Assembly: GCA_027490095.1 (NCBI GenBank) | Contig: JAIXYT010000051.1 | Span: 1-64,000, forward strand | Reading direction: 5' to 3' | DNA: 64,000 nucleotides | Source: Sphingomonadales bacterium | GTDB taxonomy: Bacteria; Pseudomonadota; Alphaproteobacteria; Sphingomonadales; Sphingomonadaceae | Shown: piece after piece, positions 38,039 to 56,175 of the stretch | Layout: each line of letters starts with the position of its first letter | Numbering within the stretch: the stretch's first letter is position 1 | The notes under the pieces: model-generated | Told to the model about the DNA's origin: nothing | Database searches by the model: none | Seen by the model: only the letters and a program-made list of their open reading frames with translations | Program-made: the position numbers and the translations under genes

Positions 38039-38500
38039 TCAGCTTTGTATCAGCCCAAGTGTGCGCATCCTTTCCAGAATGGCATTCACCACAGCCCGCA
38101 CTTCCGAATCGACCGTTACACCGCCCGACGGACTGGAAATCTGAGCCAAGGGCGCGCCCGACAGACCATCCGCCTGCCAACTTTCGCCCATCCGCCGCAA
38201 TCGTTGGCCGCCCGCCTTATCATACAATGTCGCCCCTTCAGGCAGTGACAGGTATCGCCATCCCCCCTCTGTCCACGTGGCAATCTGGCCAGCCTTTCCG
38301 TCCCAGTCCAGCCCGGCGCCCGAAGGAACGAGCCAGCACTGGCCAGCGATCGGCGAATTCGGCGGCTGCACCAAATCCCGGCGCTCCACGACACAGCCGA
38401 CCGCCGCATCAAGCAGCAGAAGCGCTTCGTTGTGCGTAACCTCTTTCTGCCCCTGCCCTGCAACCAACAGGGGCAGACCATATCGCGCTGTCAGTTCCAT
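38039..38500 (-). CDS. DUF2793 protein, end of GTA cluster
   Basis: 153 residues. It matches DUF2793: RYGLPLLVAGQGQKEVTHNEALLLLDAAVG, then CWLVPSGAGLDWDGKAGQIATWTEGGW-type blocks, and a C-terminal helix VRAVVNAILERMRTLGLI. The domain is found at the ends of alphaproteobacterial phage and GTA tail modules and may decorate the tail tip. Only 13 bp separate it from the baseplate gene. Confidence 0.85.
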   Translation of the reverse strand: MELTARYGLPLLVAGQGQKEVTHNEALLLLDAAVGCVVERRDLVQPPNSPIAGQCWLVPSGAGLDWDGKAGQIATWTEGGWRYLSLPEGATLYDKAGGQRLRRMGESWQADGLSGAPLAQISSPSGGVTVDSEVRAVVNAILERMRTLGLIQS

Positions 38501-38513
38501 TGCCTTGCCACTC

Positions 38514-40643
38514 CTACACCTCGACCCAATTGGAGAACCTCAGCCTCTCGGGCCCATCCCCCAGTGCCTCCACCCGCCATGTCCCGCCGGGCATGGGTCC
38601 ACCAAATCTCGCAATTTGGGCTGACAATTCGATACGGACACCAGTCGATGAAGCTGGAACGGTCCATTCCAGGCCGGACCCCGGCCGGAAATGCCACGTG
38701 TAAGCACCAGCGCCCGATCCTGCGATCGTTGGCTGCGCGTCTGCAAAGCTCCAGTTCCACCGATCCCGCCAAATCCAGTTGAAGCGGACCTCGCCATCCT
38801 TCAGGCGATGCGCACGCAGGTGCACAGGGGCCAAGGGGCTGACCCCGGCCGCCTGAACCGTGTAAGCTGTGAATTGCCCGCCAGACGGATCGCCGGCGCC
38901 GTCGACAAGAATGTCCAGAACTCGCCCGCGCATTTCCGGGCTGATGGGCAGCGACGCCCCGCCCGACCGGGGAATCGACATCACCAGTGTGCCCGCAGAA
39001 TGGTCGGCAGGACCGGTGCCAAAACGCCCCCTCAGCAGACCCGAAAGTCGCACCAATCCCGCATCGACGGCCTCTGCCTGCCGATACTGCAGAATTTCGC
39101 TCCCAATGCTGAGCAGGCCCCCACCATTCAGGACATCTGCAATTGTGCGGGTCAGGAAAAGGCCATGGCCAGACGATACATCGATCAGCACATGATTGCG
39201 CTCGTCCCACAGCGTCCCGGGAGACCCAGAAAGACCATGCGCGAGAACCCCGAAGGGAAGCTGCTCACTGGCTCGCCCGATGTCGATCTCGTCTCCGCCC
39301 ACCAGCAGCCCGACACCGGCCCCCTGCCAACCTGCGCCCCCACTTGCCAAAACCAGCAATTCGGCACTCGATGATTGGTGCAGCGAAACCGGAGGCTCGA
39401 CCAACGCCACAACCGAGGAAGGCGGCGACACATCCGGCGCAGGCAGTATTCGCCCCGCATCTGTTGCAACAAGCACCCGGGAAAATCTCGGAGGCAACCT
39501 GCGGCCCTCGAGTTGCACCAAGAGCCCCCGCACTTCCCGTCGGGTAACCTGCCATGTGGTGCCCTCTGGCAAGCAAAAGACATCTCCGACCGAAATGCAG
39601 AGGAATCGATGTGGCAATGTGATGCTCATGGTCTCGGAACCGGCATCCGATTCCTGCAACAGCCGCTGCACAATCGCGCGGGCCGCAGAAGCTGTCGCAG
39701 CAAGCGGCCAACTCAAGGCGATCGCCGGCCCCTTCGCGCTCCGGATTTCCTGCTGCCACCCAAGCTGGAAGTCTCGGGCTCTATCCTGGAAGGACAGGCT
39801 CAGGCCCGCTGGCTTGCCATCCTGCCTGACCTTTCCAACCGTTTCGGGATCTGCCCGATCAGCCACCAAGTCGTCCATCATGATTGCAAAGGCACGTGGC
39901 TCCAGACGTATCCTGAGTTCACCTTCCTGAATTGCAATCGTGCACCCCGAAGCACGTAGCAGGTCCTCGACGTCGGCCTCCAGGGGATCGAGGCTTGCCG
40001 TGAAGCCGTCCACTTCGACCATCGAAGATGGGGCCTCGAGCTTGGCTCCCAACTGCGACATCAGCGTTGCAAGCCATTCAGGCGCGGTCTCGCCTTCTGC
40101 CAGCACTTCGAAGCTCAACGATGGAATGCGATTTCCATAAGGCGCAAGGTCGAAATTCTCGAAGACCGCATATGAGAGATGCGAAAAGGCTGGCGCGTTC
40201 TCGATGCCCTCCATTGCGACAATCAGCGGGTCAGCTTCCGCCTTGCCCTGGGAATGAACTCTCAACGTAGCGGGCGTGAGAAATCGCCCGTCCTGCGTTC
40301 GCAACAGGCTGCCATCAGCCCAGATACGGCCAATTCCGCCGATCGGCCCCCGTGACACGGCCATGGCAAAGCCTGCAGCCTGCGCCGTTCGGCCCTGCCC
40401 CTTCGCGCCTCGTGAGGTGGGCGCTGTCGCCCAGATCAGCAGACCGCCCACCCGCGTTCGACCGAAGACATGGGGCACAATCTCGCCATAGGCGGATCGG
40501 CTCGCAAACCCATCTTCGGCACCGCCTCGCCGCGTGCGGAACAGGGCCCGGTCCACATTGGAACCCAAGGCGGCGCCGATACCCGCACCCAAGGGCCCGC
40601 CAAGCGCCTGGCCTACGGTCGAAAACAGCACAGACGCCATCAT
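38514..40643 (-). CDS. GTA baseplate/tail-hub protein (gp15-like), short form
   Basis: 709 residues. The N-terminus is a hydrophobic Gly-rich stretch (FSTVGQALGGPLGAGIGAALGSNVDRALF) typical of this family. It is followed by VFGRTRVGGLLIWAT, GPIGGIGRIWADGSLL and a phage-tail-hub region (FENFDLAPYGNRIPSLSFEV). The C-terminal part is a set of beta domains. RcGTA gp15 is about 1300 residues with an internal TIM-barrel-like domain; that domain appears missing here. The start overlaps the peptidase stop (ATGATG). Confidence 0.82.
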   Translation of the reverse strand: MMASVLFSTVGQALGGPLGAGIGAALGSNVDRALFRTRRGGAEDGFASRSAYGEIVPHVFGRTRVGGLLIWATAPTSRGAKGQGRTAQAAGFAMAVSRGPIGGIGRIWADGSLLRTQDGRFLTPATLRVHSQGKAEADPLIVAMEGIENAPAFSHLSYAVFENFDLAPYGNRIPSLSFEVLAEGETAPEWLATLMSQLGAKLEAPSSMVEVDGFTASLDPLEADVEDLLRASGCTIAIQEGELRIRLEPRAFAIMMDDLVADRADPETVGKVRQDGKPAGLSLSFQDRARDFQLGWQQEIRSAKGPAIALSWPLAATASAARAIVQRLLQESDAGSETMSITLPHRFLCISVGDVFCLPEGTTWQVTRREVRGLLVQLEGRRLPPRFSRVLVATDAGRILPAPDVSPPSSVVALVEPPVSLHQSSSAELLVLASGGAGWQGAGVGLLVGGDEIDIGRASEQLPFGVLAHGLSGSPGTLWDERNHVLIDVSSGHGLFLTRTIADVLNGGGLLSIGSEILQYRQAEAVDAGLVRLSGLLRGRFGTGPADHSAGTLVMSIPRSGGASLPISPEMRGRVLDILVDGAGDPSGGQFTAYTVQAAGVSPLAPVHLRAHRLKDGEVRFNWIWRDRWNWSFADAQPTIAGSGAGAYTWHFRPGSGLEWTVPASSTGVRIELSAQIARFGGPMPGGTWRVEALGDGPERLRFSNWVEV

Positions 40644-41062
40644 TTGCCTCCCAACGGCAGTCGCCAGGCAGAATGCCAGATTTCTTCCCGATGAACGGGG
40701 CGAAAAACGACACGCCGCAGTCCCGCATGCGCCTCGACCAGCCCACCAGTCACCTTCATCGCAAGATGGACCTGGAGCGTGGCCGGCGCCTGAAACAGGA
40801 TGTCGCCCGTTTCGGCAGCCGGCACGCGGTGGCATCCTGCCAGCTCGAGAAGTGACGTCGCAGCAGGAACGGCCAATCCCCTCAGCGGGAAGTGCGCGAC
40901 ATCGATCCGCAGCCCCGCCCGCAAGGCCGCGAAATGGATCAGCCCGACACAGTCGCATCCTGCCGCATCTCGACCCTGCGGCCTGAAGCGAGTTCCAATC
41001 AATGCCATCGCCGACTGCTCGAGGCGTTCCGCAAGGGGATGCGTCGCGTCAACTGCGCGCAT
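40640..41062 (-). CDS. NlpC/P60-type cell-wall peptidase (GTA gp14)
   Basis: 140 residues. The catalytic Cys is in GCDCVGLIHFA and the His in the VHLAMKV strand, in the usual spacing for GTA/phage NlpC-P60 tail peptidases. It is expected to nick the recipient's peptidoglycan during DNA entry. It overlaps the DUF2163 gene by 14 bp. ATG at 41062 gives the family N-terminus (MRAVDATHPLAERL). Confidence 0.85.
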   Translation of the reverse strand: MRAVDATHPLAERLEQSAMALIGTRFRPQGRDAAGCDCVGLIHFAALRAGLRIDVAHFPLRGLAVPAATSLLELAGCHRVPAAETGDILFQAPATLQVHLAMKVTGGLVEAHAGLRRVVFRPVHREEIWHSAWRLPLGGK

Positions 41063-41885
41063 AGCGCAGCAACGCATCCGTGCCGGGCACGTAAGGCTCT
41101 CCACCGAACATGCGGGCATTTCCGAAGCGCAACTGGCAGGTCGAATGACGCTTGTCGCAGCCAGGTGTCAGTCGCACCTGGACCACATCTTCCACCCCTG
41201 CAGGTAGCGCCGAATCAAGCACCAGCTCAGTCCCATCCAGGCCAATGATCTGCCTGTCGATCCCACAGCAGCGGCCGCCCAGAATGCGGGCCCATCCCAA
41301 AGCGAAGACCGAAAGATCACCCAACCCCTCCAGAGGCTTGAGCCGCCCCTCGCCCACACGGCTGACCTCCCAGTCGACCCGACGGCCGTCCAGGTTGAAC
41401 CCGCAGCCGCCATCCCCCAATTCGTGCCGGCAGGTCGGGCTCAGGCGCAAGGGCATCAATGCAGTCGACAGATCGACATCGGTCAGCAGCTCCACCCGAA
41501 AGGCGCCCCCAGCCTGGGCCGGTTGGCGAGACACATCGCCGATGCGACCGCGCGAAAGGCGCAGATGCCCAGCCTCCGGCTCCGTCCAGTCGCAGACGAT
41601 CACATCAACAAACGCCCCACGCCAACGCCCACTCGCAAGATCGAATGCCGTCACGGTCGAGGCCTCAAGGACCCCCTCGATCGACATGCTGTCCCCTTTC
41701 AGCCCCTCGGTCTGGACCGAGGCGGAAGGGGTCATCCCAGGTCCCGCTCTGTAGGTCACACCTTCGAGACGAAGGTCGCGGTCATGGCTGGTGAAGCCAA
41801 GCACCACCCCGTCTGCTCTCGCCAGTCGCCAGCACACGGCGAGATGTCCGACAGGCTTGTCGAGGATTGCCTGCACGACGCTCAT
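41049..41885 (-). CDS. DUF2163 tail hub protein (GTA gp13)
   Basis: 278 residues. It matches the DUF2163/phage BR0599 family: HLAVCWRLARADGVVLGFTSHDRDL near the N-terminus, LRLSRGRIGDVSR, CRHELGDGGCGFN (cluster-binding type Cys) and a C-terminal CDKRHSTCQLRFGNARMFGGEP with paired cysteines. In RcGTA the equivalent hub protein carries an Fe-S cluster; the spaced Cys here are compatible. The start overlaps the DUF2460 stop (ATGA). Confidence 0.88.
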   Translation of the reverse strand: MSVVQAILDKPVGHLAVCWRLARADGVVLGFTSHDRDLRLEGVTYRAGPGMTPSASVQTEGLKGDSMSIEGVLEASTVTAFDLASGRWRGAFVDVIVCDWTEPEAGHLRLSRGRIGDVSRQPAQAGGAFRVELLTDVDLSTALMPLRLSPTCRHELGDGGCGFNLDGRRVDWEVSRVGEGRLKPLEGLGDLSVFALGWARILGGRCCGIDRQIIGLDGTELVLDSALPAGVEDVVQVRLTPGCDKRHSTCQLRFGNARMFGGEPYVPGTDALLRYARS

Positions 41886-44230
41886 TCGCGCACCTCGATC
41901 AACGGAACCGATGGCGCCTCACCAGACCGCACACCGGACAGCGAAACCTCCAGCCGATCGACAGCGAAACGAACTGGGACATCAAACAAATAGCCGGCTC
42001 GAACCTCTGAACCCTCTGAGGGGGGATCTTCGAACAGGATTGTACCGAACGGCCCCAGGCTCCACCCGGCCACCACTTGCCCATCAACTGCAATCTCGAC
42101 GCTCTGGGCATCAGGACGCGTTATGCGCCGGACTTCTTCCGCTCCGGCAAAGCCGTAGCGCTTCACAAGCTGGAAGGTCAGTGACGTTCCATCGCCGATC
42201 CCGATCAGCTGGTCGGTCGGCACCGGAGCTTCACCTGTCGGGCTGCTGCTGTGGTCCAACGGATCCCTTAGCCGGAACCCGAAACCGCGGCCGCGACGGG
42301 CCCTGAAAAAGGCCAGCAAAGACATCAGGTCAGCCTCCGACCGTATGCCCAGACCTGCGTCATAGGTCAGCCGCGCCTGCGCCCATTGGACGTTGCGCTG
42401 CTCGTGGCCCGACGCCAACTGCGCCACCTGGGTTGAAAACTCCGGGCCCCCAACGGCGTCGAAACCAAGCTCAAGCGGAAACCTCACATCATGGACGGCC
42501 TGCATAGTGTCGCCTCTTTCATCGTCTGACCCGTCGACCTGTATCCAGACGAACCCGTCTCGGGCGACCTGTGGCCAGGCCCAGACGAATGTCTCCGGAA
42601 CGCCGCGCTTCATCGCCGCCGATGCGGCACTTGCCACCAGGGGCCATTCCGTCAGGGCATGTCGCGGATCGAGGACAAAGCCTGCCAGATACTGCTGCTT
42701 GGAAAGCGGATATCCCAGCACGCTCAACACGGCCTCCCGCGCACGCGCCATACCCGCTTCGTCCGAACTGGTGACGAAGCTGTAATCTTCCAACTGCAGC
42801 ACATCCCATGCGGGGTTGGACCAGGCGGGCGGCATGTTCGCCCGGCGCAGCTCGGGCGCACCGGAATCGAGGACCTGTGGCGCATAGAACAGCAGATGAG
42901 ACACGGTTTCGGCCGCCTGCCCCTGCTCTACAGCGGTTATCAGTGCCCCAGTGGCCTCAGCCAGCCGGGCCCCAAGCCAATCGAGCCAAGACAGTTCGGC
43001 GACTGTGCGTGTCCCGCGCACATCGCTCATGGCCGGCGGCTCGGTACCTGTCTCGACCAGCCAGCGTCCCACAGTGGCAGCATCGTAGAAACAGGGCCGA
43101 CCAGTCGGCCCGACCCACCACCACGGTTCGCCCACCTGAAACAGAACGCGTCCGCTCTCGCTTGCGGCGATCTGGCCGAATTCCGACGCAACCCCCCGCA
43201 GCCAGGCCATAGCCTCCGGATTGCAGGACGACAGCAGCGTCGATGGCGGCACCCATCCGGTCAGCGCGCGATTGCCGTCCAGATCGCGCTGAGCCCAGGC
43301 AGAGGGTGCATTCTCGTCGAACAGCTCGAATGACAGGGACAGGATCACTTCGAACCCGGCGCGCGCGGCAGCCCGCAGCAGGCCGCGATGCCAGGCCACC
43401 GCTGACGCGCACAGACCGGACGACACTTCGAACCGACCCCCGCTGACGGCGGCCAGCGCGTAGAAGTGGCTCATGCCGACATAGTGGTTTGCAAGAGCCC
43501 GGTAGCCGAGCGCCTCCCACTGCTCCACCAACCGCTCGGGGACGAGATTGTAGCTATCGTCATACCCGGAACAGATGCGCAGGGCGTGTTCCGGCAGAAA
43601 AGCATCTCCGACCGCAAGCATCGATCGTGGGCCGCTCACTGTCCACGCCCTGAACTCGACATAGGTCGAGGCAGCGATCGGCAGCGGATCCGGCGTTCCG
43701 TCAAAGCCAGCCGGCACAACCGAAATGAACAGTCGATCTACATCTCCGGCGAACACCAGCTCTCCGCCTTCGCCAAATCCGGCGCGCAACTGGTCCATGT
43801 CGAGCACAATGCGCGGTGCTTCCGGTGAACCGGTCGCGTAATTCCACAACCGCACATACCAGACACGGGGCGCCCCATCCGCATTCCGCCCCTCGATGGT
43901 CAGCACTGCTCCGTTGACCGCATCGATGGGCATGACGCCCGGTCCGGCGACATACTCGAACGCGAGGGTGCACCCTCGAAGATCGCGGTCGGTCGCATAG
44001 GCAAGCAACGGGTGAGACGCCCGATCTTCGCAAGCCCAGATCAGCCCGACGAGATCGCCTCTCGTCAAAAAGTCGAGGTCAAGGCGCAGCACGCCCGTCT
44101 CGGGCACAGTTGCAGCTGCCATCATCGGCCGCGGGAAGTCGACCGTCCACAGGCTAGGGCGAAATCGCTTGACCCAAGCAGTCCGCACCTGGTCCGACCG
44201 CTGCGCGAGATAGGACGGCACGTCAGCCAC
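41882..44230 (-). CDS. DUF2460 distal-tail protein with large N-terminal extension (GTA gp12)
   Basis: 782 residues from a GTG at 44230, with GGAG upstream and an 8-bp overlap with the tape measure gene. The last ~205 residues are a complete DUF2460 domain (VRFPLELGFDAVGGPEFSTQV, FFRARRGRGFGFRLRDPLDH, DGTSLTFQLVKRYG). Stand-alone DUF2460 proteins are about 210 residues. The N-terminal ~575 residues read as beta domains followed by a TIM-barrel-like hydrolase-type region (LVEQWEALGYRALANHYVG, FEVILSLSFELFDENAP, VLFQVGEPWWWVGPTGRPC). It resembles non-contractile tail sheath-type proteins or glycoside hydrolase folds; this part is inference. Confidence 0.8.
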   Translation of the reverse strand: MADVPSYLAQRSDQVRTAWVKRFRPSLWTVDFPRPMMAAATVPETGVLRLDLDFLTRGDLVGLIWACEDRASHPLLAYATDRDLRGCTLAFEYVAGPGVMPIDAVNGAVLTIEGRNADGAPRVWYVRLWNYATGSPEAPRIVLDMDQLRAGFGEGGELVFAGDVDRLFISVVPAGFDGTPDPLPIAASTYVEFRAWTVSGPRSMLAVGDAFLPEHALRICSGYDDSYNLVPERLVEQWEALGYRALANHYVGMSHFYALAAVSGGRFEVSSGLCASAVAWHRGLLRAAARAGFEVILSLSFELFDENAPSAWAQRDLDGNRALTGWVPPSTLLSSCNPEAMAWLRGVASEFGQIAASESGRVLFQVGEPWWWVGPTGRPCFYDAATVGRWLVETGTEPPAMSDVRGTRTVAELSWLDWLGARLAEATGALITAVEQGQAAETVSHLLFYAPQVLDSGAPELRRANMPPAWSNPAWDVLQLEDYSFVTSSDEAGMARAREAVLSVLGYPLSKQQYLAGFVLDPRHALTEWPLVASAASAAMKRGVPETFVWAWPQVARDGFVWIQVDGSDDERGDTMQAVHDVRFPLELGFDAVGGPEFSTQVAQLASGHEQRNVQWAQARLTYDAGLGIRSEADLMSLLAFFRARRGRGFGFRLRDPLDHSSSPTGEAPVPTDQLIGIGDGTSLTFQLVKRYGFAGAEEVRRITRPDAQSVEIAVDGQVVAGWSLGPFGTILFEDPPSEGSEVRAGYLFDVPVRFAVDRLEVSLSGVRSGEAPSVPLIEVRE

Positions 44231-44762
44231 CGGTGCGCTCCAGCGCCCGCCGAATGCCCTGCGCGATCTGCCGGCCTGACCGGGCCATGAAAGCAACTTC
44301 GCCCGAAGGCGCCGCCATGTTGACAGTCACCCGCACAGGTCCGCGCCCAGGAGCGGCCGCTTCAACCCGACCACTGGATGTGGGAACGAACAGTTCAGGG
44401 CCTCTCTCGCCGACCATGTAAGCCCGCCCTGGGCCGACGGCGCCCCCCGTCGCCCGCCCAGGAAGTCCAAGCAACCCGGTGGAAATCCCGCCCAGAAATC
44501 CGCCGGCGCCGCCCCCGTCCAGCTTAAGCGCTGCCGCGGCGATCTCGCCCAACGCCTTGGCGGCAACCCGGCCGAGATCTTCGAACTCCAGCTTTCCGCT
44601 TCGGGCCGCCTGGCGCAGCGCAGCCTCGATCCCCCGCCCCGCCGACTGCGCCGGCTCTCCGAGACCAATCAGCAACGCCGACCGCATCTCGTCCACATCG
44701 CGCCGAAACGCCTCCGTATCTGCCCTCACCGACACGGCGAGGCCATCGATCTCATCGTCCAT
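44223..44762 (-). CDS. tail tape measure protein (GTA gp11)
   Basis: 179 residues. A helical N-terminal half (DTEAFRRDVDEMRSALLIGLGE, LRQAARSGKLEFEDLGRVAAKAL) runs into Gly-rich FLGGISTGLLG, RATGGAVGPGRAYMVGERGPELFVPTSSG (the conserved tape-measure tail block) and a C-terminal MARSGRQIAQGIRRAL. Very short for a tape measure, in keeping with GTA short tails. Confidence 0.82.
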   Translation of the reverse strand: MDDEIDGLAVSVRADTEAFRRDVDEMRSALLIGLGEPAQSAGRGIEAALRQAARSGKLEFEDLGRVAAKALGEIAAAALKLDGGGAGGFLGGISTGLLGLPGRATGGAVGPGRAYMVGERGPELFVPTSSGRVEAAAPGRGPVRVTVNMAAPSGEVAFMARSGRQIAQGIRRALERTGG

Positions 44763-44955
44763 CGGTGTTCACCTTCATCTCCAGGTCTGCGAGTTCGGCG
44801 CGTCCGAGCGGCGCGGACGTGCTCGATCCGGTCCAACCGATCAGCGCATCCTCAAACTCTGCAACGGTCGACTCCCAGAAAGCCCCAGGCACCCAGCCCA
44901 GCTGGCCGGTCGCAACGGCTGCGGCAGACCGCGCAAGGTCTGCGAACCGCTTCAT
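44752..44955 (-). CDS. small tail assembly chaperone (GTA gp10-extension type)
   Basis: 67 residues, beginning MKRFADLARSAAAVATGQLGWVPGAFWESTV in outline (read in parts), with an acidic C-terminal half (FEDALIGWTGSS, ELADLEMKVNTDGR). The WxPxxFW(..)T motif is that of the small TIGR02216-type tail proteins found just before GTA tape measures. ATGA overlap with the gene before, 11-bp overlap with the tape measure gene. Confidence 0.75.
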   Translation of the reverse strand: MKRFADLARSAAAVATGQLGWVPGAFWESTVAEFEDALIGWTGSSTSAPLGRAELADLEMKVNTDGR

Positions 44956-45670: not shown

Positions 45671-45671
45671 G

Positions 45672-46410: not shown

Positions 46411-46422
46411 CGGCGCCTCCCA

Positions 46423-47231: not shown

Positions 47232-47242
47232 AGCCCTCTCCT

Positions 47243-47611: not shown

Positions 47612-47648
47612 TCTCACTCTCCCACATGCGATCCATTCGCGAGGATGA

Positions 47649-50591
47649 TCATTCAGACCCCACAACGAGGTTGCGGTCTTCCGAGCCGACCAGGAGCCGC
47701 CTGCCAGGGGGCGAACTGCCAACCACCTCCGCCGAAAGGCCTGCTGCGCCTGCAGTCAGCAGGCTCCGGGCCCCTTCCACCACAAGGGCGGTGCGCCATC
47801 TGACCCGGGCATCCGCCGCGCGATGGGGCTGAAGCCCGGCTACCGCCTGCAAACGTCCAGGCGCTATCTCGCCGGCGGTCCGCCCCAGCGCGCCGCTGTC
47901 GAACGTCAAGCCTCGCGTCTGGCCCCGCGCATTCCGATCCGTGGTGGCGACACCAGTGGCCCGGTTTAGCAACCGGCTTGGCTTGAACGGGGCAACCGCT
48001 GCCGTGTCGGCCCGATAGTCCCCGCCATAGGCAGCACTGGGCGTCGTCGGGCCACTGTTGCTGCGGTCGTCGACATAGCCGAACCAGTTCACGGCGAACG
48101 CAGGCGACGATGCGAGGTCGGTCGCCGAGCCCAGATTGAGTTCCATTTCACTGGCGATGCCATAGTAGGCCGGAAGGAAATCGCGCGGTGTGCTGACGCC
48201 CCGGTTGGCATTCACATTGCCACGATAGCCGACGCCATAGAGCACCTCCCACGAACCCGTGAGGGCCGGGTCACCCCTGTACATGTCGTGCTTCGTCGCG
48301 TTCCGATCGAAGGCACAATAGCGGATGATGTTGTTTTCCTGGCGAAGGTTCGCATTCAGGATGAAACGGTTCGGCTGCCCGGCCTGCGCGCCGGTCACGA
48401 ACGCGATCTGTGGCGACCCGGACGGTGCGCTCGAAACCGCCGACGAGGCGAGATAGGTGAAGCGGTTCGCATCCAGCACCGTCACCGCGACCCCAGTGCG
48501 GTTCATGGCCGAATTGCCGAAGCCGCTGACGTTGATCGTGTCGCCCGTCGCCATGCCGTGGTTAAGCAGGCCGATGGTGATCGTCGCGGTGCCGTTCACC
48601 CGCACCGGGGACGTGGCACTGGACGATGAGGCAAAATCCACATCGTTGTGGAAGTTCAGCCGCCCACCGATGAAGGTGCAGCCTTCGAAGATGCTGTCGC
48701 GCAGCACGCTTCCGGTCGTCTCGCCGATTTGCATCACGCGCGAAGATCCGGGCACCCCTGCGCATTCGATCAACAGGTTGATCAGCGCCCAGCGGAAGCT
48801 TGCGCTCACCGTCGATCCGAACGCGGGCGTTCCGACGCTCAGGACATTGTCGGTCGTTCCATAGACCTCGACGTTCCACAACATCAGGTCGTCCATGTTC
48901 TGCGAGCCGGTGTTGAAGGCTGCGCCGCGCGAGGGCGCAAACTCCCCGGCTTCCGGCATGACGATCCTGGTATTGATCAGCGTGGACACCCGCGACGAGG
49001 ACGCCATCATCGCCGTTCGGGTCTGGTTGCGGCTGATGAAGCCGAAGTCCTGAAGGCCGCAGTCCCGCTGCGTCACGTTGAAGCCGCTGAACCACTCGCT
49101 GTTCGCGCCGCCCACGAACATGATCCGGTTGGATCCGTCGTTGGCAAAGCCTGCCTTGCCGCGCACGTCCACGTTTTCCAGTGTCAGCCAGCGGTTCGTG
49201 TCGGTCGTGGTGAAGATGCTGACTTCGCCGATCTCGGCGCTCAGGTCGCGCAGCTTGATCCGCGTCATCCCACCAAGGCGCGGGGTCGCACTGGACAGCG
49301 AACGAATGATGCAGTTCGCGCGCGGGTCAGACGAAGCAGGCGTGCCGCGAATGACGATATAGCCTGGCCCCGAATTGGCGTGCGAACTGGCAGGCGTCAG
49401 GTCAATGCTGTGCTGGTTCACACCCTCGGGCAGCAGCATTTCCCACCAGGCCGCGCATGACGTGACGGACGAGAACCCATTGCGCGCGGGCAGCGTGCGG
49501 TTGCCGTTCACGCCGTTGCGGAACGCCGACGCCGCCACCGAAATCGACCGCGCCTTGGTCGTGGCAGACGCCGCCTGTGCCGCCGCAAGGCTGGTGTGCA
49601 GCGTCACAGCGCTGCCCGTCGTCGCCCCGTTCACCAGGTCGATATCGACGTAATAGCGCGGCCAAATCGCGCCTGTCGGGTCGTACCACAGGTGGAACGG
49701 CTTATCGAAGTTCGTGCCCAGCGCCGCCGTGGTCGACGTGCTGTGCGCCGTCCCCGTGGAACGCTCTGCCCCCACCCACGGAAACACCGTCGCGTGAACC
49801 GTGATCGGGCCGGGGTTCAAGCCCGAAAGGTCAATGTCCCCGCCCCAGCAGCGCAAGGAGTCGGCATACAGCGGCGAAGTCTGCGGCGCGGTGAAGAAGA
49901 AGTCCTTGGTCGTGGTGCCATCGAACGCCCGCAGCCGCACCGCCGCACAGGCTTGGTGCAGATTGGCCCCGTCGTGCTCGGGGTGATGCGTCGCCACCAG
50001 CACTTCGACGCGGCCAATGTGGGAAGGCGAGCCCGCCGTGCCGCCGACATAGGGCCAGGGCTCATTCGCCCACTTGAACAGCGGGGGCGGGGCCGTGCGG
50101 GTCGAGTTGTTGGTGACCGTGTTGACCGTGCCGCCGCCCTGCCCGACCTTCCATCCCGACAGGAACGAAGCCGAGACAATGGTCGACCCGGCATAGATGC
50201 GATCCGACAGCGCAAAGCGGATCGTGCGCGTGCCGTCGCCGTGATCCGTCTCGTCCAACGGGGGCTGGGAGGTGCTGTTGATGTAAGGCAGCCGCAGTGG
50301 GCGGGTCGCAACTACGGTGCGCGGACGATTGGCATTGGCAACCGGCAGCCCACCAACCCGGCCAAAGCCCACGTCCTGCACGTTGAGCGCAAGGCGGGGC
50401 GTGCCGCCCGGATCAAGCGGGAACTGGTTGATGCCGGCGACACGCCACTCCGCATCGGGCCGATCGTCAAGCGCATTGATCGACGCTCCGTTCGACCGGA
50501 ACCAGGCCCCACCCGTCACGGTGCTACCCCATGTACCGCGCACCGCCAGCACCCAGCCGTTGCTCTCAACGGCTGCCGATATCACTGCCAT
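47649..50591 (-). CDS. large beta-helix-like fibre/spike protein in the GTA cluster
   Basis: 980 residues, by far the longest gene of the cluster, with AGGAGA before its ATG. Residues ~1-330 are beta-sandwich-like (DGTRTIRFALSDRIYAGS, HIGRVEVLVATHHPEHDG, KPFHLWYDPTGAIWPRYYVDIDL). Residues ~390-800 show short recurring strands rich in Asn, Ile, Gly and Ser (NCIIRSLSS, LTLENVDVRGKAGF, LMLWNVEVYGTTDN, SIFEGCTFIGGRLNF, NNIIRYCAFDRNA), the look of a right-handed parallel beta-helix. The C-terminal ~100 residues are Ala/Arg/Gly-rich. Likely binds a surface polysaccharide; function analogous to RcGTA head spikes is inferred from position. Confidence 0.65.
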   Translation of the reverse strand: MAVISAAVESNGWVLAVRGTWGSTVTGGAWFRSNGASINALDDRPDAEWRVAGINQFPLDPGGTPRLALNVQDVGFGRVGGLPVANANRPRTVVATRPLRLPYINSTSQPPLDETDHGDGTRTIRFALSDRIYAGSTIVSASFLSGWKVGQGGGTVNTVTNNSTRTAPPPLFKWANEPWPYVGGTAGSPSHIGRVEVLVATHHPEHDGANLHQACAAVRLRAFDGTTTKDFFFTAPQTSPLYADSLRCWGGDIDLSGLNPGPITVHATVFPWVGAERSTGTAHSTSTTAALGTNFDKPFHLWYDPTGAIWPRYYVDIDLVNGATTGSAVTLHTSLAAAQAASATTKARSISVAASAFRNGVNGNRTLPARNGFSSVTSCAAWWEMLLPEGVNQHSIDLTPASSHANSGPGYIVIRGTPASSDPRANCIIRSLSSATPRLGGMTRIKLRDLSAEIGEVSIFTTTDTNRWLTLENVDVRGKAGFANDGSNRIMFVGGANSEWFSGFNVTQRDCGLQDFGFISRNQTRTAMMASSSRVSTLINTRIVMPEAGEFAPSRGAAFNTGSQNMDDLMLWNVEVYGTTDNVLSVGTPAFGSTVSASFRWALINLLIECAGVPGSSRVMQIGETTGSVLRDSIFEGCTFIGGRLNFHNDVDFASSSSATSPVRVNGTATITIGLLNHGMATGDTINVSGFGNSAMNRTGVAVTVLDANRFTYLASSAVSSAPSGSPQIAFVTGAQAGQPNRFILNANLRQENNIIRYCAFDRNATKHDMYRGDPALTGSWEVLYGVGYRGNVNANRGVSTPRDFLPAYYGIASEMELNLGSATDLASSPAFAVNWFGYVDDRSNSGPTTPSAAYGGDYRADTAAVAPFKPSRLLNRATGVATTDRNARGQTRGLTFDSGALGRTAGEIAPGRLQAVAGLQPHRAADARVRWRTALVVEGARSLLTAGAAGLSAEVVGSSPPGRRLLVGSEDRNLVVGSE

Positions 50592-50615
50592 CCCGGCTCT
50601 CCTGACCCAGGTGTC

Positions 50616-50641: not shown

Positions 50642-50659
50642 CTCTCCCTCATCGCGCGA

Positions 50660-51817
50660 TCAGGTCGCAGAGAAGCGCATCAGCTTCAGGGCCTCGCTGT
50701 TCACCAGGGCTCCGCCAACGCGACGGGTCGCATAGAAGTGCACGAAGGGCTTGTTCGAGTAGGGGTCCCGCAGCACGGCCGTTTCACCCCGCTCGGCGAC
50801 GACATAGGCGCTGCGGAACTGGCCAAACCCGATCGACAGGCTGTTTGCGCCGATATCCGGCATCGCATCCACCTCGATCACGGGATATCCCAGAAGAGTA
50901 GAGGCCTGTCCGTCAAGCAGCCCGGGCTTCCAGATGAAGTCCCCGGTCGTGTCCTTGAACTTCCGGATCGCCGAAATCGTGTTCGAGTTCATCACCCACA
51001 CGGCGCCCTGCCGATAGGGGGCCCGCAGGGCGTGCACCATGTCGACCAATCGGTCCTGGGGGTTCGTGCCAATGAATGCGCCGGCAGCACCGGACGGAAC
51101 ATATTGCAGCGTTCCGAACGGCCGCGTCGCATCCCCGGTGGTTGCCACCGGATAGGTCAGGAAGCCCTTCGGCTGTGCCGTGCCCGTGCCCGACACGAAG
51201 GCCACGCCTTCGGCCCGCGCAAACTCGATCGCAATTTCCCGTGCAAGCCAGCCCTCGACGTCGAACAGGGCATCGTCCAGCATCGCCTGGGTCGCCGCGG
51301 GGTTGGCATAGAGCTCACCCATGGGCGTCAGCACCTCAGAGAACACCGGCGTCGCAGTCTCCGGCCGCCCGGCCGCCTCACCGACCCAGCCGGAAGCAAC
51401 CCCGCCGGCTGCCACAAGCTTTCGGTAGTTGGCCGATCCCACCTTCACCACATCCGCAATCGCCCGGATCGGCGAAATCAGCTTCAGCGTCGTCTCGATC
51501 CGCTGGTCGATCTCAAGCGGAACGGCAAGTCCACCTTCGCCGGCAATCCCGACCGAAAGCCGCTTCGTCTCGAACCCGGCCTCGACTCCCTTGCGCAGAT
51601 AGCTGTCGGCAAAGTCGGTTGCCGACCGGCCTGCCCGACCAGCGGCAGCAAGCGGCCCGGCCGAAACAACCCGACGCGCCAGCTGGTCCAGATCCTGCTT
51701 CATCTCCAGGCGCAGCGCATCCAGATCCGCCCGAACCGGATCGGTCGCTGGCGGGGTTGCGACGTGCGGAACATCCGCCGCGGTCACCACCGCGTCGGCC
51801 TTGGTCTCATAGGTCAT
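50660..51817 (-). CDS. HK97-type major capsid protein (GTA gp5)
   Basis: 385 residues, AAGGAGA before the ATG. An N-terminal helical scaffold/delta region (DPVRADLDALRLEMKQDLDQLA, residues ~27-60) precedes the HK97 fold: SVGIAGEGGLAVPLEIDQRIE, SGWVGEAAGRPETATPVFSE, AFVSGTGTAQPKGFLTYP, AVWVMNSNTISAIRKFKD and LLGYPVIEVDAMPDIG. It forms the particle shell after cleavage by the neighbouring protease. Confidence 0.93.
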   Translation of the reverse strand: MTYETKADAVVTAADVPHVATPPATDPVRADLDALRLEMKQDLDQLARRVVSAGPLAAAGRAGRSATDFADSYLRKGVEAGFETKRLSVGIAGEGGLAVPLEIDQRIETTLKLISPIRAIADVVKVGSANYRKLVAAGGVASGWVGEAAGRPETATPVFSEVLTPMGELYANPAATQAMLDDALFDVEGWLAREIAIEFARAEGVAFVSGTGTAQPKGFLTYPVATTGDATRPFGTLQYVPSGAAGAFIGTNPQDRLVDMVHALRAPYRQGAVWVMNSNTISAIRKFKDTTGDFIWKPGLLDGQASTLLGYPVIEVDAMPDIGANSLSIGFGQFRSAYVVAERGETAVLRDPYSNKPFVHFYATRRVGGALVNSEALKLMRFSAT

Positions 51818-51886
51818 GATCGTTCGTCTCCTTGCTGGAACCACATTGGTTCCGCCTTCGCCGGCCCGCCCGGCACACGTCTTGCG

Positions 51887-52288
51887 TCAGGCGACAGAGT
51901 CCACCCGCGCATCCGAATGCATCGGCAATGTCACCACCGAGCATTCGACCAGATCGAGCTTCAGCAGCTCGCGTCCGCCCCCCGGTCTCGGTCTCGACGA
52001 CTTCACCCGGTATCCGAAGGACAGCCCATCGATCGCGCCACTGCGCAGAAGGGCAAGGGCATCCAGCCCGTCCCGGCAGTCGGCACTCACGCCCGCCACC
52101 ATCTTAAGTCCGATCCGATCCTCCTGCAGGCTCAACACACGGCCGATCGGCCGGGCCGGATCATGCTGCCACAACAGCGGAACGTCCGCCGGCGCCCCCA
52201 GAAAGGCCGCCGGCCGCACGACATCCCCGCACCGATCCGGGCTGTCGAACCGGCTCACATATCCCGTCACCCGCACAAGCCCGTCCAT
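51887..52288 (-). CDS. HK97-type prohead protease (GTA gp4)
   Basis: 133 residues, short for the family. Opening VTGYVSRFDSPDRCGDVVRPAAF is typical (with D for the usual D/N), then VPLLWQHDPARPIG (catalytic His), and GAIDGLSFGYRVKSS (catalytic Ser in LSFGY). It matures the capsid shell. Its ATG overlaps the portal stop by one base. Confidence 0.9.
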   Translation of the reverse strand: MDGLVRVTGYVSRFDSPDRCGDVVRPAAFLGAPADVPLLWQHDPARPIGRVLSLQEDRIGLKMVAGVSADCRDGLDALALLRSGAIDGLSFGYRVKSSRPRPGGGRELLKLDLVECSVVTLPMHSDARVDSVA

Positions 52289-53409
52289 CACGCGCCTCCC
52301 TTCGAACGCGGAGCCCAACCCAGCATCTCCCGCTTCTCGTCATCGCTCAGGAACGTGGCATCCCCGACATGGCGCCACAGACGCTCCCGGTCGGCCCACA
52401 GGGCCGGAACAAGGTCGAGGTCCGGCTCCAGCCGAAGCCCGGGCCACCAGAGCGACAGATGGCGGGAAACCCCGTCGAGGATCCGGTTCAGAAGCGGCAG
52501 GATCGTGATCCGCCAAAGCGCAACATTGGCCTCGGCATAGTTGGCATGGGTCGAATCCCCCGGCAGCCCCAGCAGCATCGGCGGAACCCCGAAGGCAAGC
52601 GCCACCTCCCGCGCTGCCGCCTCGCGTGCCCGTTGGAAGTCCATCTCCGCCGGGGTCAGGGCCAGGGGCTGCCACTTCAGCCCCCCTTCCAGCAGCATTG
52701 GCCGCCCAGCATTCTGCGACCCCTGGAATCCAGCCTCGATCTCGTCCCGCAATCGGCCGAATTGTTCAGGCGACAGCGGGCCTTCCTCGGGATCCAGCAC
52801 AAGCGCGCCAGACGGCCGCGCCGCGTTCGCAACCAGAGACCGATTCCACCGTCCTGCCGCCTGCAACAGAGCGATCGCTTCGCTCGCCGCCTCGACACAG
52901 CCGGCGCCCAGATGATCGTCCAGGGGGTCGAATGCCTTCAGGTGCAGAAGGCCCGGCGCCTGCCGGTCCCCCTGCGCAGCATGCCGTTGAACGCGACCAC
53001 CGACCTGATGGACCCAGCTCAGCGGCCAACCATTGGCATCGGTCTCCAGGCGCATCCGCTCGGGCCGCAGGGCCCACAGCTCCGCCGGCAATCCCCCAAG
53101 GTCAAGCCCGGTCTCCACAAAGGCATTGCCGTGCATCAGCAGATGTGTGGCAAGGGCCTCCAGCAGAGCCGGCGACAGCAGCCGCTGTGCCACATGGGTT
53201 CCACCATCGGCCAGCAAGGTCACGCTCGAAAGACCTTCAGCCACGATCCTGACAGCTCTCAGCGCAACAGGGTTTCGCCACGCCGCGCGGACCTGCCCCT
53301 CATAGGAAGCGGGCGGCTCCGACCCGGCCGGTTGCGACAACGCCCAAGAGCGTCCCTGTCCCAACGCCTTGCGCTCGGGGCGGGGAAGGAAGCGAGCCGC
53401 CCAGCTCAC
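52288..53409 (-). CDS. phage/GTA portal protein (gp3)
   Basis: 373 residues of the HK97-type portal family: AWRNPVALRAVRIVAEGLSSV near the N-terminus, LLMHGNAFVE, PSGALVLDPEEGPLSPEQFGRLRDEIEAGF in part, REVALAFGVPPMLLGLPGDSTHANY and a late helix RLWRHVGDATFLSDDEKREMLG. It forms the DNA-entry vertex with the terminase. Confidence 0.93.
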   Translation of the reverse strand: MSWAARFLPRPERKALGQGRSWALSQPAGSEPPASYEGQVRAAWRNPVALRAVRIVAEGLSSVTLLADGGTHVAQRLLSPALLEALATHLLMHGNAFVETGLDLGGLPAELWALRPERMRLETDANGWPLSWVHQVGGRVQRHAAQGDRQAPGLLHLKAFDPLDDHLGAGCVEAASEAIALLQAAGRWNRSLVANAARPSGALVLDPEEGPLSPEQFGRLRDEIEAGFQGSQNAGRPMLLEGGLKWQPLALTPAEMDFQRAREAAAREVALAFGVPPMLLGLPGDSTHANYAEANVALWRITILPLLNRILDGVSRHLSLWWPGLRLEPDLDLVPALWADRERLWRHVGDATFLSDDEKREMLGWAPRSKGGA

Positions 53410-53624
53410 TGGTCACGTCCCGTGCCGGGAAGCGGCCCGACGGCAAAAAGCCCCCCGCCAATGATCAAGGAGACTGCCTGCGCAAGGCCATGTGCCTGCA
53501 TCGGATCGGATCCGAGGACGACAGCAACCATCGCAAGCCCAGCCCAGGTCGAGCTCTCGGCAAGGCGCAGACGCAGCCATGCCAGCACTGCCCCAAGGGG
53601 CAGCCCATCCAGAAACGCCTTCAT
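53406..53624 (-). CDS. small membrane protein between terminase and portal
   Basis: 72 residues with two hydrophobic segments (TWAGLAMVAVVLG and AVSLIIGGGLFAVGPLPG) and an N-terminal amphipathic stretch. It has the size and topology of a holin-like or membrane-anchored protein but no diagnostic motif. It overlaps the portal gene by 4 bp, so it is expressed with the cluster. No endolysin other than the tail peptidase is nearby. Confidence 0.65.
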   Translation of the reverse strand: MKAFLDGLPLGAVLAWLRLRLAESSTWAGLAMVAVVLGSDPMQAHGLAQAVSLIIGGGLFAVGPLPGTGRDQ

Positions 53625-53637
53625 CGGTTTCTCCTGT

Positions 53638-54948
53638 TCAGCCGCCCAGCAGGCGGACCTGCGGGCCGGGCCCGCGTCCTCCCAGCATCAGTTCAGTCAG
53701 CGCCCAGACAAGTGCGTCCGCCCGATCGGGCGAGGTGCCCGGCCCGACATAGCCGCCGCCAAGAACAAGCCCGCACAACTCGTCCTCCAGCTGCGGGAAA
53801 TGCCCGACATGGCGCACCCGGCCGGCGGAATAGAGCGCCGAGACCGGCTCGGCCCGCGCGGCTTTCCCGCGACTGGCGCGAACCTGCTTGACCGGCAGGT
53901 TGATGGAGGCCGCCCGCAGGATGCTTTCCACCATGTCCCCGCCATTGTTGGTCTCCACCACCACCCGATCGGCCTGGTGGCGCTCGAAGGCGGCCGCCAC
54001 TGCTGCAGCCCAGGCTTCGGGTGTCGTGCCTTGAACGCTGGCGTCCGCCAGAACATGTCCCACGCCCCGCGCATCGATACCCGCAATCACGACGCCGCAC
54101 CCCCCGGGCCCGGCCGGGGGATCGACACCAACAACCACCCGTACAAGGTCGGGGGCGGCTGCCGCCCGGCAGGCCGCCAGTCCGTCAAGGGTCCACAACG
54201 CGCCTTCCTGGGCCTCGAGCAACTCGCCCAGCAATTCCTGTCGCCCCAGGCTCGTGCCCGCGTAACTGCTGGCGAGATCGTCGAGATAGTCCCGAGGAAG
54301 ATTGGCACGATTGTCGAATGTCGTTCCCCGCGTGACGACCGTACCCGGCATGTCCAGCAGCGCCCTCAGCAGGGGCAGGGCGCGCGGCGTCGTGGTCACG
54401 ACCACCTGCGGGTGGCGCCCCAACCTCAGGCCCATCCGCAGATTGTCCCATGCCTCCCGTGGCTTGGGCCAGGCCGCCAGCTCGTCACACCAGGCGAAAT
54501 GAAACTGGGGCCCGCGAAGCTGGTTGGGTTCCGCCGCCGACAGCACGAATGCCTGCGCCCCGTTCGGCCAGGCCAGCAGGCGCCGGGATGGCAACCATTC
54601 CGGTTCGAAGTCAGAGCCTGAAACAGCCAACAGGCCCGACTCCCCTTCCACCATCACCGACATCACGTCATGGGCCGACACCCCGACAAGGGCAAACCTC
54701 GCATCCGGGACACGCCGGGCCTGTTCCGTCACCCACTCCGCACCGGCCCGGGTCTTTCCGAATCCACGGCCGGCCAGGATCAACCATTGGGACCAGGCAC
54801 CGGCCGGAGCCAGTTGCGAAGGCCGCGCAGTCCAACCCCAGCTCTGCGCCATGTCCGCCAGAAGCTCCGCCGGCACATCGCCAATCACCCGGTCAAGATC
54901 GGCTGGCGCCAGCAGGGCAAGGCGCTCAAGCACCGACTGCTCCGCCAC
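53638..54948 (-). CDS. large terminase subunit (GTA gp2)
   Basis: 436 residues from a GTG with GGAGGAGG upstream. ATPase: Walker A LAGRGFGKTRAG, Walker B FAWCDELAAW, coupling VVVTTTPRALPLL. Nuclease: the acidic residues in VGVDPPAGPGG, VVETNNGGDMV and SPDRADALVWALTEL. It drives DNA packaging. GTA terminases package host DNA by headfuls; no small terminase or cos-type site is seen beside it. Confidence 0.93.
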   Translation of the reverse strand: MAEQSVLERLALLAPADLDRVIGDVPAELLADMAQSWGWTARPSQLAPAGAWSQWLILAGRGFGKTRAGAEWVTEQARRVPDARFALVGVSAHDVMSVMVEGESGLLAVSGSDFEPEWLPSRRLLAWPNGAQAFVLSAAEPNQLRGPQFHFAWCDELAAWPKPREAWDNLRMGLRLGRHPQVVVTTTPRALPLLRALLDMPGTVVTRGTTFDNRANLPRDYLDDLASSYAGTSLGRQELLGELLEAQEGALWTLDGLAACRAAAAPDLVRVVVGVDPPAGPGGCGVVIAGIDARGVGHVLADASVQGTTPEAWAAAVAAAFERHQADRVVVETNNGGDMVESILRAASINLPVKQVRASRGKAARAEPVSALYSAGRVRHVGHFPQLEDELCGLVLGGGYVGPGTSPDRADALVWALTELMLGGRGPGPQVRLLGG

Positions 54949-55011
54949 GCGCCCCTCCTCCGATCCGGAACCCGCCCCGCGTCAGCCGCAACTCCGGAGC
55001 ATGCCCAATCT

Positions 55012-55533
55012 CTATACCGGAGCGTCACGATTGTCAAGGCTTATTTTACCATATTGGTTTTCGTAGTGACGCACGAGACGATCGAGGGCCAGCTGCAGGA
55101 CCAGCTTGGCCGCTCGTGTGGGCCACCCAAGGGCGCGCTCCGCGTTCGCAAGCCCCTCCCCTTCGCATGCAACGCGCCAAAGCACGTCCGAAAGGCCCGG
55201 GCCGACGAACTCCAGGGCCCGATCGAAGCGGCGCTTCGCATCGATCGATCGCAGAGACTGCTCCTGAGCGCCCGCTCCGCCTCGTTCATTCCGGCCGACC
55301 AGCGCAGGCTCCCATCGCATCGTCACCCGCGCACCCAGTCCCGCAAGCGCATGATCAGCCCGCAACCGCTCGGCTGCAGCCAGCTGAAGCGGGGTCAGAT
55401 GCCCCCGGCGTGCCAGCCACGCGAGCGGCGACTCGACCAGGTTCACCGACACCAGCTGCCGATCCACGCGATCGCACGGGGCAAGCATGCGCTGCCCGAT
55501 TTCCCGATTCGGATAATCTGTCGCATCCAACAT
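55012..55533 (-). CDS. DUF6456 protein, candidate GTA activator (GafZ-like)
   Basis: 173 residues, with AGGAGAG upstream of ATG 55533. The DUF6456 core is clear: ESPLAWLARRGHLTPLQLAAAERLRADHALAGLGARVTMRW, read in parts, then AKRRFDRALEFVGPGLSDVLWRVACEGEGL and a helix-turn-helix-like C-terminus (GWPTRAAKLVLQLALDRLVRHY). DUF6456 domains occur in the C-terminal part of GTA activators (GafA of Rhodobacter, GafZ of Caulobacter), where they contact RNA polymerase. It ends 63 bp before the terminase start on the same strand, so it could be the first gene of the cluster's transcript. Confidence 0.75.
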   Translation of the reverse strand: MLDATDYPNREIGQRMLAPCDRVDRQLVSVNLVESPLAWLARRGHLTPLQLAAAERLRADHALAGLGARVTMRWEPALVGRNERGGAGAQEQSLRSIDAKRRFDRALEFVGPGLSDVLWRVACEGEGLANAERALGWPTRAAKLVLQLALDRLVRHYENQYGKISLDNRDAPV

Positions 55534-55568
55534 ATTGATCTCTCCTCTCGACATCGCCCGACACCTGC

Positions 55569-55591
55569 CATACTGGTATGTCTGTAGGACA
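55569..55591. promoter_or_regulatory. overlapping dyads between DUF6456 and XRE genes
   Basis: CATAC-TG-GTATG (55569-55580) and TGTC-TGTAG-GACA (55579-55591) overlap in the 78-bp divergent gap. They are in the right place to be the operator of the XRE regulator, controlling itself and the DUF6456 gene. Confidence 0.5.
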
Positions 55592-55611
55592 GGGCATCTC
55601 GGGAGAAGGCG

Positions 55612-56175
55612 ATGCGCAACAGGCTGCGGGAGATTCGCAAGGCGCAAGGATTGACCCTCGCCGACGTGGCCGCGAAATGCATGCCGCCGACGACTGCGGT
55701 CACCATCGGCCGGCTGGAGACAGGCACGAGGCAACTCACGGTGCCGTGGATCGAGAAGCTATCCCACGCCCTCGGCGTGGAGCCGCGCCAGCTGATTGCA
55801 CAGGAAAGCGACGCCACGCTGCCGGTCGCAGCCCAATTGGCAGCGGATGGCGCGCAGGCGCTGACGACCCCCCTGCAGATCTCGCCACCCGCACCGTTCC
55901 CGAACGCGATCGCACTGCTGGTCAGGGATTCGCAGGGCGACTACCGCGCAGGCGACCAGCTCTGGCTCGAGCAACTGCCGCCCGACCGCTATGCCGAGGC
56001 CGTCAACACCGACATCCTCGCACCCCGTCCCGTCGGCAGGTTTGTCTTCGGGCGCCTGGTCGCCACCGAAGGGGCTCGGCTGCACATTCTGCCCACAAAG
56101 GCCGGCAGCCGGCAGACGGTTGTCGCAGACACGCCATGGATTGCCCGAATCCGGACCTTGGTCCGGACCTTCTGA
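55612..56175 (+). CDS. XRE-family regulator, candidate GTA repressor
   Basis: 187 residues, GGGAGAAGG before the ATG. The N-terminal helix-turn-helix spans residues ~1-62 (LREIRKAQGLTLADVAAKC, VTIGRLETGTRQLTVPWIEKLSHALGV). The C-terminal part (about 95-187) resembles a LexA/S24-type fold (LLVRDSQGDYRAGDQLWLEQL, GRFVFGRLVATEG), but the SM pair is SQ and no clear catalytic Lys follows, so self-cleavage is unlikely. Divergent from the DUF6456 gene with dyads between. Caulobacter GTA production is held down by a repressor acting on its activator genes; a similar circuit is suggested. Confidence 0.75.
   Translation: MRNRLREIRKAQGLTLADVAAKCMPPTTAVTIGRLETGTRQLTVPWIEKLSHALGVEPRQLIAQESDATLPVAAQLAADGAQALTTPLQISPPAPFPNAIALLVRDSQGDYRAGDQLWLEQLPPDRYAEAVNTDILAPRPVGRFVFGRLVATEGARLHILPTKAGSRQTVVADTPWIARIRTLVRTF

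Follow-up and report, generated by a model that had tools for sequence, protein, structure and literature searches.

A candidate CI/Q-like switch attached to a gene transfer agent cluster in Sphingomonadales

We analyzed 64,000 nucleotides of DNA from a Sphingomonadales bacterium (assembly GCA_027490095.1, contig JAIXYT010000051.1, positions 1 to 64,000; hereafter the window), which carry a cluster of the type that encodes RcGTA, the gene transfer agent (GTA) of Rhodobacter capsulatus. At the head of this cluster lie a gene for a DUF6456 protein and, divergent from it, a gene for an XRE repressor-like protein. Judged from sequence and predicted structure, it is rather probable that the RcGTA-type cluster is kept here with a minimal two-gene switch resembling CI and Q of phage lambda, in which the XRE protein would repress and the DUF6456 protein, a GafZ, would load. 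For a wider proposal we see even chances: that Sphingomonadales GTAs use a GafY-free switch made of a CI-like repressor and a Q-like GafZ, which works directly on the structural promoter from either side, persists when separated from the cluster and is here fused to the cluster head as an ancestral phage-like unit, and that loss of GafZ entails loss of its element, with the repressor and often its operator staying behind. The genome comprises 3.15 Mb in 51 contigs; below, f1 denotes its family, g1 its genus and g29 the sister genus.

Detailed accounts of GTA control come from Rhodobacter and Caulobacter, whose regulator genes are located away from the cluster and whose control involves GafY or a fused form of it. 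With the arrangement described here, a third order gains a concrete, testable circuit with named sites, and a simple system in which loading by GafZ can be told apart from activation by GafY. The arrangement further hints at how a switch of prophage style became dispersed later. The features at the head of the cluster are as follows.

55612..56175, plus strand: XRE repressor-like gene, 187 amino acids (aa), with a helix-turn-helix (HTH) and a LexA/CI-like C-terminal domain that lacks the cleavage dyad (HTH_3, E 1.1e-9)
55534..55611, no strand: divergent XRE-DUF6456 intergenic region, 78 bp (from the sequence)
55583..55591, minus strand: conserved TGTCCTACA box, candidate element ([TG]TCCTACA in 44/56, shuffle mean 0.09)
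55566..55578, minus strand: candidate XRE operator TACCAGTATGGCA of the ACC-N5-GG type (the weaker ACC-N5-GGC form in this genome)
55012..55533, minus strand: DUF6456 gene, short GafZ-type candidate antiterminator/activator, 173 aa (PF20057, E 7.6e-40; sigma-region-4-like predicted fold)
55047..55059, minus strand: second ACC-N5-GGT element, AACCAATATGGTA, in the 3' end of the DUF6456 open reading frame (ORF), upstream of the -35
55032..55037, minus strand: -35 TTGACA of the inferred structural promoter
55023..55029, minus strand: CGTGACG, candidate GafZ-binding element in the -35/-10 spacer
55009..55016, minus strand: putative -10 region (TATAGA/TAGAGA), overlapping the DUF6456 stop codon and missed by a sigma-70 consensus scan
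54987..55006, minus strand: leader GGGCATGCTCCGGAGTTGCG, alike in most of eight g1/g29 loci

In the proposed scheme, the XRE protein would bind ACC-N5-GG palindromes in the intergenic region and repress the DUF6456 gene, and probably its own; it would also bind the second copy, which immediately precedes the structural promoter, so that both promoters are held off. When repression fails, the DUF6456 protein, acting as a GafZ without GafY, would bind CGTnACG in the -35/-10 spacer of the structural promoter, a promoter contained in the 3' end of the DUF6456 gene itself. There it would load onto RNA polymerase, and the loaded polymerase would transcribe through the 17-kb cluster, with antitermination carried over from Caulobacter. 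We infer the pairing of binders with sites, the direction of regulation, the antitermination and the production of particles from gene content, protein families, predicted folds, conserved linkage and conserved elements that are associated with the presence of the genes.

The GafZ-type and repressor-like genes

The DUF6456 gene likely starts at the ATG at 55533, which is preceded by GGAGAG. The initial annotation had recognized in its product the domain found in the GTA activators GafA and GafZ, and this was borne out by the match to PF20057 (136.6 bits versus a cut-off of 26.3) and by a predicted fold like that of sigma region 4. In the model, residues 85-173 resembled sigma region 4, with the best sigma match at a Z score of 8.9 and a root mean square deviation of 2.0 over 78 residues (predicted local distance difference test, pLDDT, of 79). 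A sigma-region-4-like part has been reported for Caulobacter GafZ (PMC11150451; this paper, PMC9632790 and PMC9765227 are cited throughout from parts of their text). By family and predicted fold, the DUF6456 protein is a GafZ-type activator domain. It consists of little more than the domain here; its counterparts from outside f1 retain additional N-terminal sequence.

This genome contained a single DUF6456 match. Across the order, PF20057 was found in 234/297 genomes, mostly in single copy, and in a class-wide draw it was found in 29/143 genomes, 3 of the 29 from Sphingomonadales. A phage-borne DUF6456 was considered and rejected: the sole match in the phage collection, MW462191.1, sits among bacterial-type genes and was not counted as phage, the record probably being a mislabelled bacterial contig. 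Two function-unassigned PHROGs families showed weak to moderate DUF6456 similarity.

In other alphaproteobacterial orders, the DUF6456 gene adjoins a gene for GafY, which resembles DnaA domain IV. A GafY model made from 5 sequences matched 9/11 further loci of other orders (2 weakly), 0 Sphingomonadales loci and nothing in the window. Since no GafY lies beside DUF6456 or is fused to it, we filed the gene as GafZ-type and not as part of a GafYZ or GafA system. A 12-row GafY model was also run against whole genomes. Its 12 strong matches in 16 genomes of other orders were the model's own rows, and two further genomes of those orders matched weakly beside GafZ (1e-7 and 5e-6). The best match in 28/28 Sphingomonadales genomes was a DnaA-sized ORF, and both g29 genomes had a weak extra match (1.3e-6 and 0.0019). 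GafY thus appears to be missing from its usual place beside GafZ in Sphingomonadales; for absence from the whole genome, the evidence is weaker. Among the relatives of one GafZ from another order, the best 80 of 572 bore Rhodobacterales-type titles, in line with the published GafA.

The AlphaFold2 model of the XRE protein (pLDDT 91.8, predicted template modeling score 0.63) combined an HTH of the CI type with a C-terminal domain like those of LexA and CI. It matched LexA (3k2z) with a Z score of 10.8 over 107 residues and lambda CI (2ho0) with 10.4 over 115. The cleavage dyad was not conserved: at the positions equated by eye with the LexA Ser and Lys, position 105 was Ser in 2/21 sequences and position 147 was Gly or Ala in 21/21. 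As modeled, the protein follows the plan of RogA, an HTH with a LexA/CI-like domain in which key autocleavage residues are missing (PMC9632790).

The initial annotation had also placed this gene divergent from DUF6456; the two genes are 78 bp apart. The same divergent arrangement was found in 30/31 loci selected by DUF6456 and in 25/29 loci selected by XRE, 3 of the 29 coming from genomes already in the DUF6456-selected set. Such a recurrence of the divergent orientation is more than chance, and the pair is found widely across Sphingomonadales. Elsewhere, the XRE model matched 6/16 genomes of other orders, there beside gafYZ, so the XRE/GafZ pairing may predate Sphingomonadales.

DNA elements and the genes they accompany

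We searched the 200 nucleotides upstream of XRE at one locus per genome in 56 genomes, excluding five loci without one of the two genes. First-order Markov shuffles served as background; because the regions are related, the counts are not probabilities. The palindrome AACC-N5-GGTT was present in 30/56 genomes (shuffle mean 0.1, maximum 2), ACC-N5-GGT in 42/56 (mean 1.6) and ACC-N5-GG in 52/56 (mean 9.9).

Upstream of the structural genes, the block TTGAC-N2-5-GTNAC occurred in 38/48 regions (shuffle mean 0.18, maximum 2), a count to be read with the reservation that the pattern was drawn up on loci seen beforehand and that two of the 48 regions are stretches of one genome. The palindrome (hereafter the box) and the block occurred together, in strict form, in 17/48 regions versus 0 in shuffles. 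Over whole genomes, the box followed by TTGACA at a spacing of N10 gave 33 matches in 29/44 genomes, versus 6 for the reversed pattern. Twenty-seven of the 33 fell in the 5 kb preceding the terminase, 25 of them in the nearest 1 kb; the other six were in G051, G045 and G012 (one each) and in G238 (three). The palindrome AACC-N5-GG(T/C), which precedes XRE and also recurs, some 20 bp before a consensus -35, at the structural promoter, even at unlinked loci, is new here, and suggests that XRE may act directly at the structural promoter too. Together, box, TTGACA and CGTnACG form a DNA signature for locating GTA promoters in Sphingomonadales. A leader of the form CATCGC[GA]A...GAnTCG was seen downstream of the structural promoter in 14/20 unlinked genomes.

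We then compared genomes with and without DUF6456, using a block expression fixed before either set was looked at. Of the 63 DUF6456-negative genomes, 22 were searched; G015 and G017 counted as negative because they were absent from the listed matches. The CGTnACG block was present in 17/20 unlinked positive genomes and in 0/13 negative genomes with a terminase (Fisher P = 1e-6). The difference held within f1 (17/20 versus 0/9, P = 2e-5) and within genus g16 (3/3 versus 0/4, P = 0.03). Some of the genomes share ancestry (four from g16, one g2 trio and three from f5), which leaves fewer independent events. The box with TTGAC was found in 17/20 positive and 5/13 negative genomes (P = 0.009); the five negative genomes with this combination have lost nothing but the spacer element, and each of them retains XRE. 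XRE was present in 14/17 DUF6456-negative f1 genomes, 8 of these 14 having the ACC-N5-GGT box upstream of it (shuffle mean 0.23). DUF6456 without XRE was seen in G220. From these patterns of presence, CGTnACG accompanies DUF6456, and the box is in keeping with XRE. We considered whether the recognition helix of XRE (AQTIG, changed to AVTIG in g1 and g29) covaries with the operator and dropped the idea: AVTIG genomes keep ACC-N5-GGT at the structural promoter, and AQTIG genomes often have GGC there.

Several results weigh against the switch as proposed. The terminase was found in 13/22 DUF6456-negative genomes, so DUF6456 is not needed to keep the cluster, and strict co-occurrence of the two was rejected. 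CGTnACG also occurred in 8/56 XRE upstream regions (shuffle mean 2.3, maximum 7). At the N11 spacing, this genome had one box-TTGACA match, at the structural promoter, and the 6 matches in 6/28 genomes compare with 5 for the reversed control, leaving only their location to support them. G238 has three extra sites with box and TTGACA, two of them with the block, none before GTA genes; the two with the block have a GTA-like leader. The RogA site, GGAA-N4-TTCC, was found in 0/56 XRE upstream regions, and we therefore call XRE RogA-like and not RogA. A divergent GafY might have escaped the whole-genome search, given that the strong matches were the model's own rows, that two others were weak and that the two g29 genomes had weak extra matches. 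A terminator scan showed no excess in the window (7 versus 13.6 in shuffles) and none in the g29 leader, and terminators were rejected as antitermination targets on these grounds. The g29 leader does fold a long hairpin.

The position of the box bears on the leading alternative, in which XRE acts at the XRE/DUF6456 promoter only, following strict RogA logic, and the structural promoter's box would serve a different regulator, an undetected GafY, or XRE in an activating role. Lying about 20 bp before the -35, such a site would suit activation as well as repression and is activator-like in placement. Moreover, four f1 genomes with XRE and terminase and no DUF6456 (G110, G211, G227 and G261) had neither box nor block at the terminase. 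Yet no GafY was found beside GafZ in Sphingomonadales loci, the box stays upstream of XRE in the 8/14 genomes without DUF6456, and four f5 and f8 genomes that have the terminase and lack both XRE and DUF6456 have neither box nor block. We regard this alternative as unlikely, though it is the strongest competitor of the two-gene switch acting at both promoters. In G211, XRE lies directly divergent from the terminase.

The proposed switch resembles that of the Caulobacter crescentus GTA (CcGTA), with its LexA/CI-like repressor without cleavage residues, a GafZ with a sigma-like HTH and a GafZ site in the -10/-35 spacer (PMC9632790, PMC11150451), the place of the candidate element here. It differs in that rogA (CCNA_00080), gafYZ (CCNA_01111-01112) and the cluster (CCNA_02861-02880) are apart in Caulobacter and all together here. 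Caulobacter also needs GafY and IHF at a promoter with a degenerate -35, whereas here no GafY was found and the -35 matches the consensus; the two systems also have different sequences at their repressor and GafZ elements. A near-consensus -35 made the Caulobacter promoter independent of GafYZ, though weaker (PMC11150451). Because sphingomonad promoters carry TTGACA, this would explain the loss of GafY.

With RcGTA, the system shares a homologous structural cluster and a DUF6456-type activator; there, however, GafA is a single protein with GafY-like and GafZ-like parts and is encoded outside the cluster (PMC9765227, PMC9632790). With lambda, it shares a CI-like repressor fold and a candidate loading site in the -35/-10 spacer, as described for Q (PMC11150451). 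Here, by contrast, no terminator was identified, and the repressor lacks the cleavage dyad.

Linkage of the switch to the cluster

The initial annotation had presented the attachment of activator and repressor genes to the head of the structural cluster as a departure from known systems. We examined 80 genomes, chosen from the 234 DUF6456 positives for listed places and genus spread. A terminase was found at an E value of 1e-30 or better in 65 of the 80, in some as fragments. DUF6456 preceded the terminase on its strand, at no more than 2 kb, in 11/11 non-f1 genomes (drawn from 15 non-f1 genomes with DUF6456) versus 4/54 f1 genomes. In the other f1 genomes, it was 2 to 15 kb from the terminase (8 genomes), far away on the same contig (24) or on another contig (18). 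In g1 and g29, the pair was attached to the cluster in 7/8 loci, the exception being G437. Outside the 80, the f1 genome G452 had terminase sequence 671 bp from the pair. The synteny was thus retained in the genus, the sister genus and all 11 genomes from other families.

In a FastTree analysis of 58 joined XRE and DUF6456 sequences, which leaves out G003, G018, G045 and G222, g1 and g29 formed a group (support of 1.0) that was sister to 33 other f1 sequences (0.93). An attached f3 genome came next outside f1 (0.998), and deeper nodes were weak. With 11/11 attached outside f1 versus 4/54 within it, attachment looks ancestral and kept in the clade of this genome. By parsimony on the gene tree, without a species tree, attachment of the switch to the cluster is probably the ancestral state of Sphingomonadales, lost in most of f1 and retained here. 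The linkage noted at the outset is therefore real; it is not peculiar to this genome.

Kogay and Zhaxybayeva found gafA homologs in 196/208 genomes, in all GTA orders, with the RcGTA gene outside the cluster, and the covered parts of their paper hold no statement on the place of gafA in Sphingomonadales (PMC9765227). The main texts of PMC10883770, PMC9836097 and PMC11409702 do not mention gafA. We found no description of a DUF6456/XRE-cluster linkage in the titles and abstracts of the published GTA-regulation literature, a scope that takes in few of the subscription papers and no supplements, and the linkage, the box and CGTnACG were likewise not found in those parts of its texts that were covered.

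As anatomy, the self-contained GTA with its own switch that the initial annotation envisaged is well supported by the linkage and the shared DNA elements; as function, it would work as proposed above, and the cluster, from its genes, probably makes gene transfer particles. It might instead be a decaying remnant that is kept by descent, makes no particles and has a vestigial switch. Loss of the linkage in most of f1 would fit such decay, as would the lack of a small terminase gene in this cluster and the state of the terminase in G437. On the other side, the main structural genes are open here, including the terminase, and the promoter elements are kept in most of the genus, which makes a remnant decidedly improbable. 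G437 belongs to the same genus; there, read by eye, the beginning of the terminase passes straight into sequence of the portal C-terminus, apparently through a deletion, and the switch and promoter elements are kept.

Gene content of the cluster

The RcGTA-type head-tail cluster, including the DUF6456 gene, spans 38039-55533 on the minus strand and runs from DUF6456 at the front to DUF2793 at 38039. Its genes are listed in this order.

53638..54948, minus strand: large terminase (PF03237/PF17289; GTG start at 54948)
53406..53624, minus strand: small ORF in the terminase-portal gap, kept in g29, with no PHROG match
52288..53409, minus strand: portal (PF04860, TIGR01537)
51887..52318, minus strand: prohead protease (PF04586, TIGR01543)
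50660..51844, minus strand: HK97-type major capsid protein (PF05065, TIGR01554)
47649..50591, minus strand: 980-aa fibre-like protein in the capsid-connector gap (sub-threshold Pfam match, no PHROG, partial g29 matches)
46956..47231, minus strand: gp77-type fibre-tail adaptor (PF23148)
45263..46956, minus strand: head-tail connector, head completion, gp17-like tail completion and tail tube (PF05135, PF05521, PF11367, PF06199)
44223..45266, minus strand: gp10-like, gp10.1-like (by position) and 179-aa tape-measure-like genes (PF11836; phrog_30701, tape-measure phrogs)
41882..44230, minus strand: distal tail protein, a fusion of a non-contractile tail sheath module with DUF2460 (PF23844, PF23845, PF09343, TIGR02217)
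38039..41885, minus strand: baseplate hub, gp14-like (by position, without a family match), megatron-like and DUF2793 genes (Pfam/NCBIfam)

Pfam and NCBIfam matched the RcGTA order of terminase, HK97 portal, S78 protease, HK97 capsid, connectors, tail tube and gp10, followed distally by a short tape measure, an Rcc01695-family distal tail protein, a phage/GTA baseplate hub, part of the "megatron" model and DUF2793. The Pfam scan covered 20 products of the cluster region and 10 flanking products of the window, and among these 30 no integrase, replication or lysis family was found, the small ORFs at 40640-41119, 44752-44955 and 53406-53624 being outside the scan. A GTA gene order free of phage replication, integration and lysis genes, as first annotated, accordingly held for the scanned products. 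The placement of the DUF6456 gene 63 bp before the terminase on the same strand proved exact (ATG gene at 55012-55533, terminase GTG at 54948). The annotated layout was right in its order and needed correcting in three respects: the cluster is on the minus strand, a 980-aa fibre-like gene occupies the capsid-connector gap, and no small terminase gene follows DUF6456.

None was found between DUF6456 and the large terminase, and elsewhere in the genome only weaker matches resembling the small terminase (TerS) were detected. In six mapped non-f1 loci, a small-terminase-like gene lies between the two. The next genes beyond XRE are dcd-like (an identification by eye) and UPF0262.

A defective or satellite prophage is very improbable: the fibre-like and tail-sheath modules are of phage type, yet the GTA order, a GTA hub family and part of the megatron model are present, both g29 genomes have the same two neighbours (dcd-like and UPF0262), and the scanned products include no integrase.

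Downstream of the 980-aa fibre-like gene lie a small conserved ORF and then the gp77-type fibre adaptor, and the region has matching neighbours in g29 and some other families. A literature search found no paper on a GTA with a non-contractile tail sheath. The sheath module of the distal tail protein has relatives in 342 phage records, and full-length proteins like the sheath-fused form are present in other Sphingomonadales clusters.

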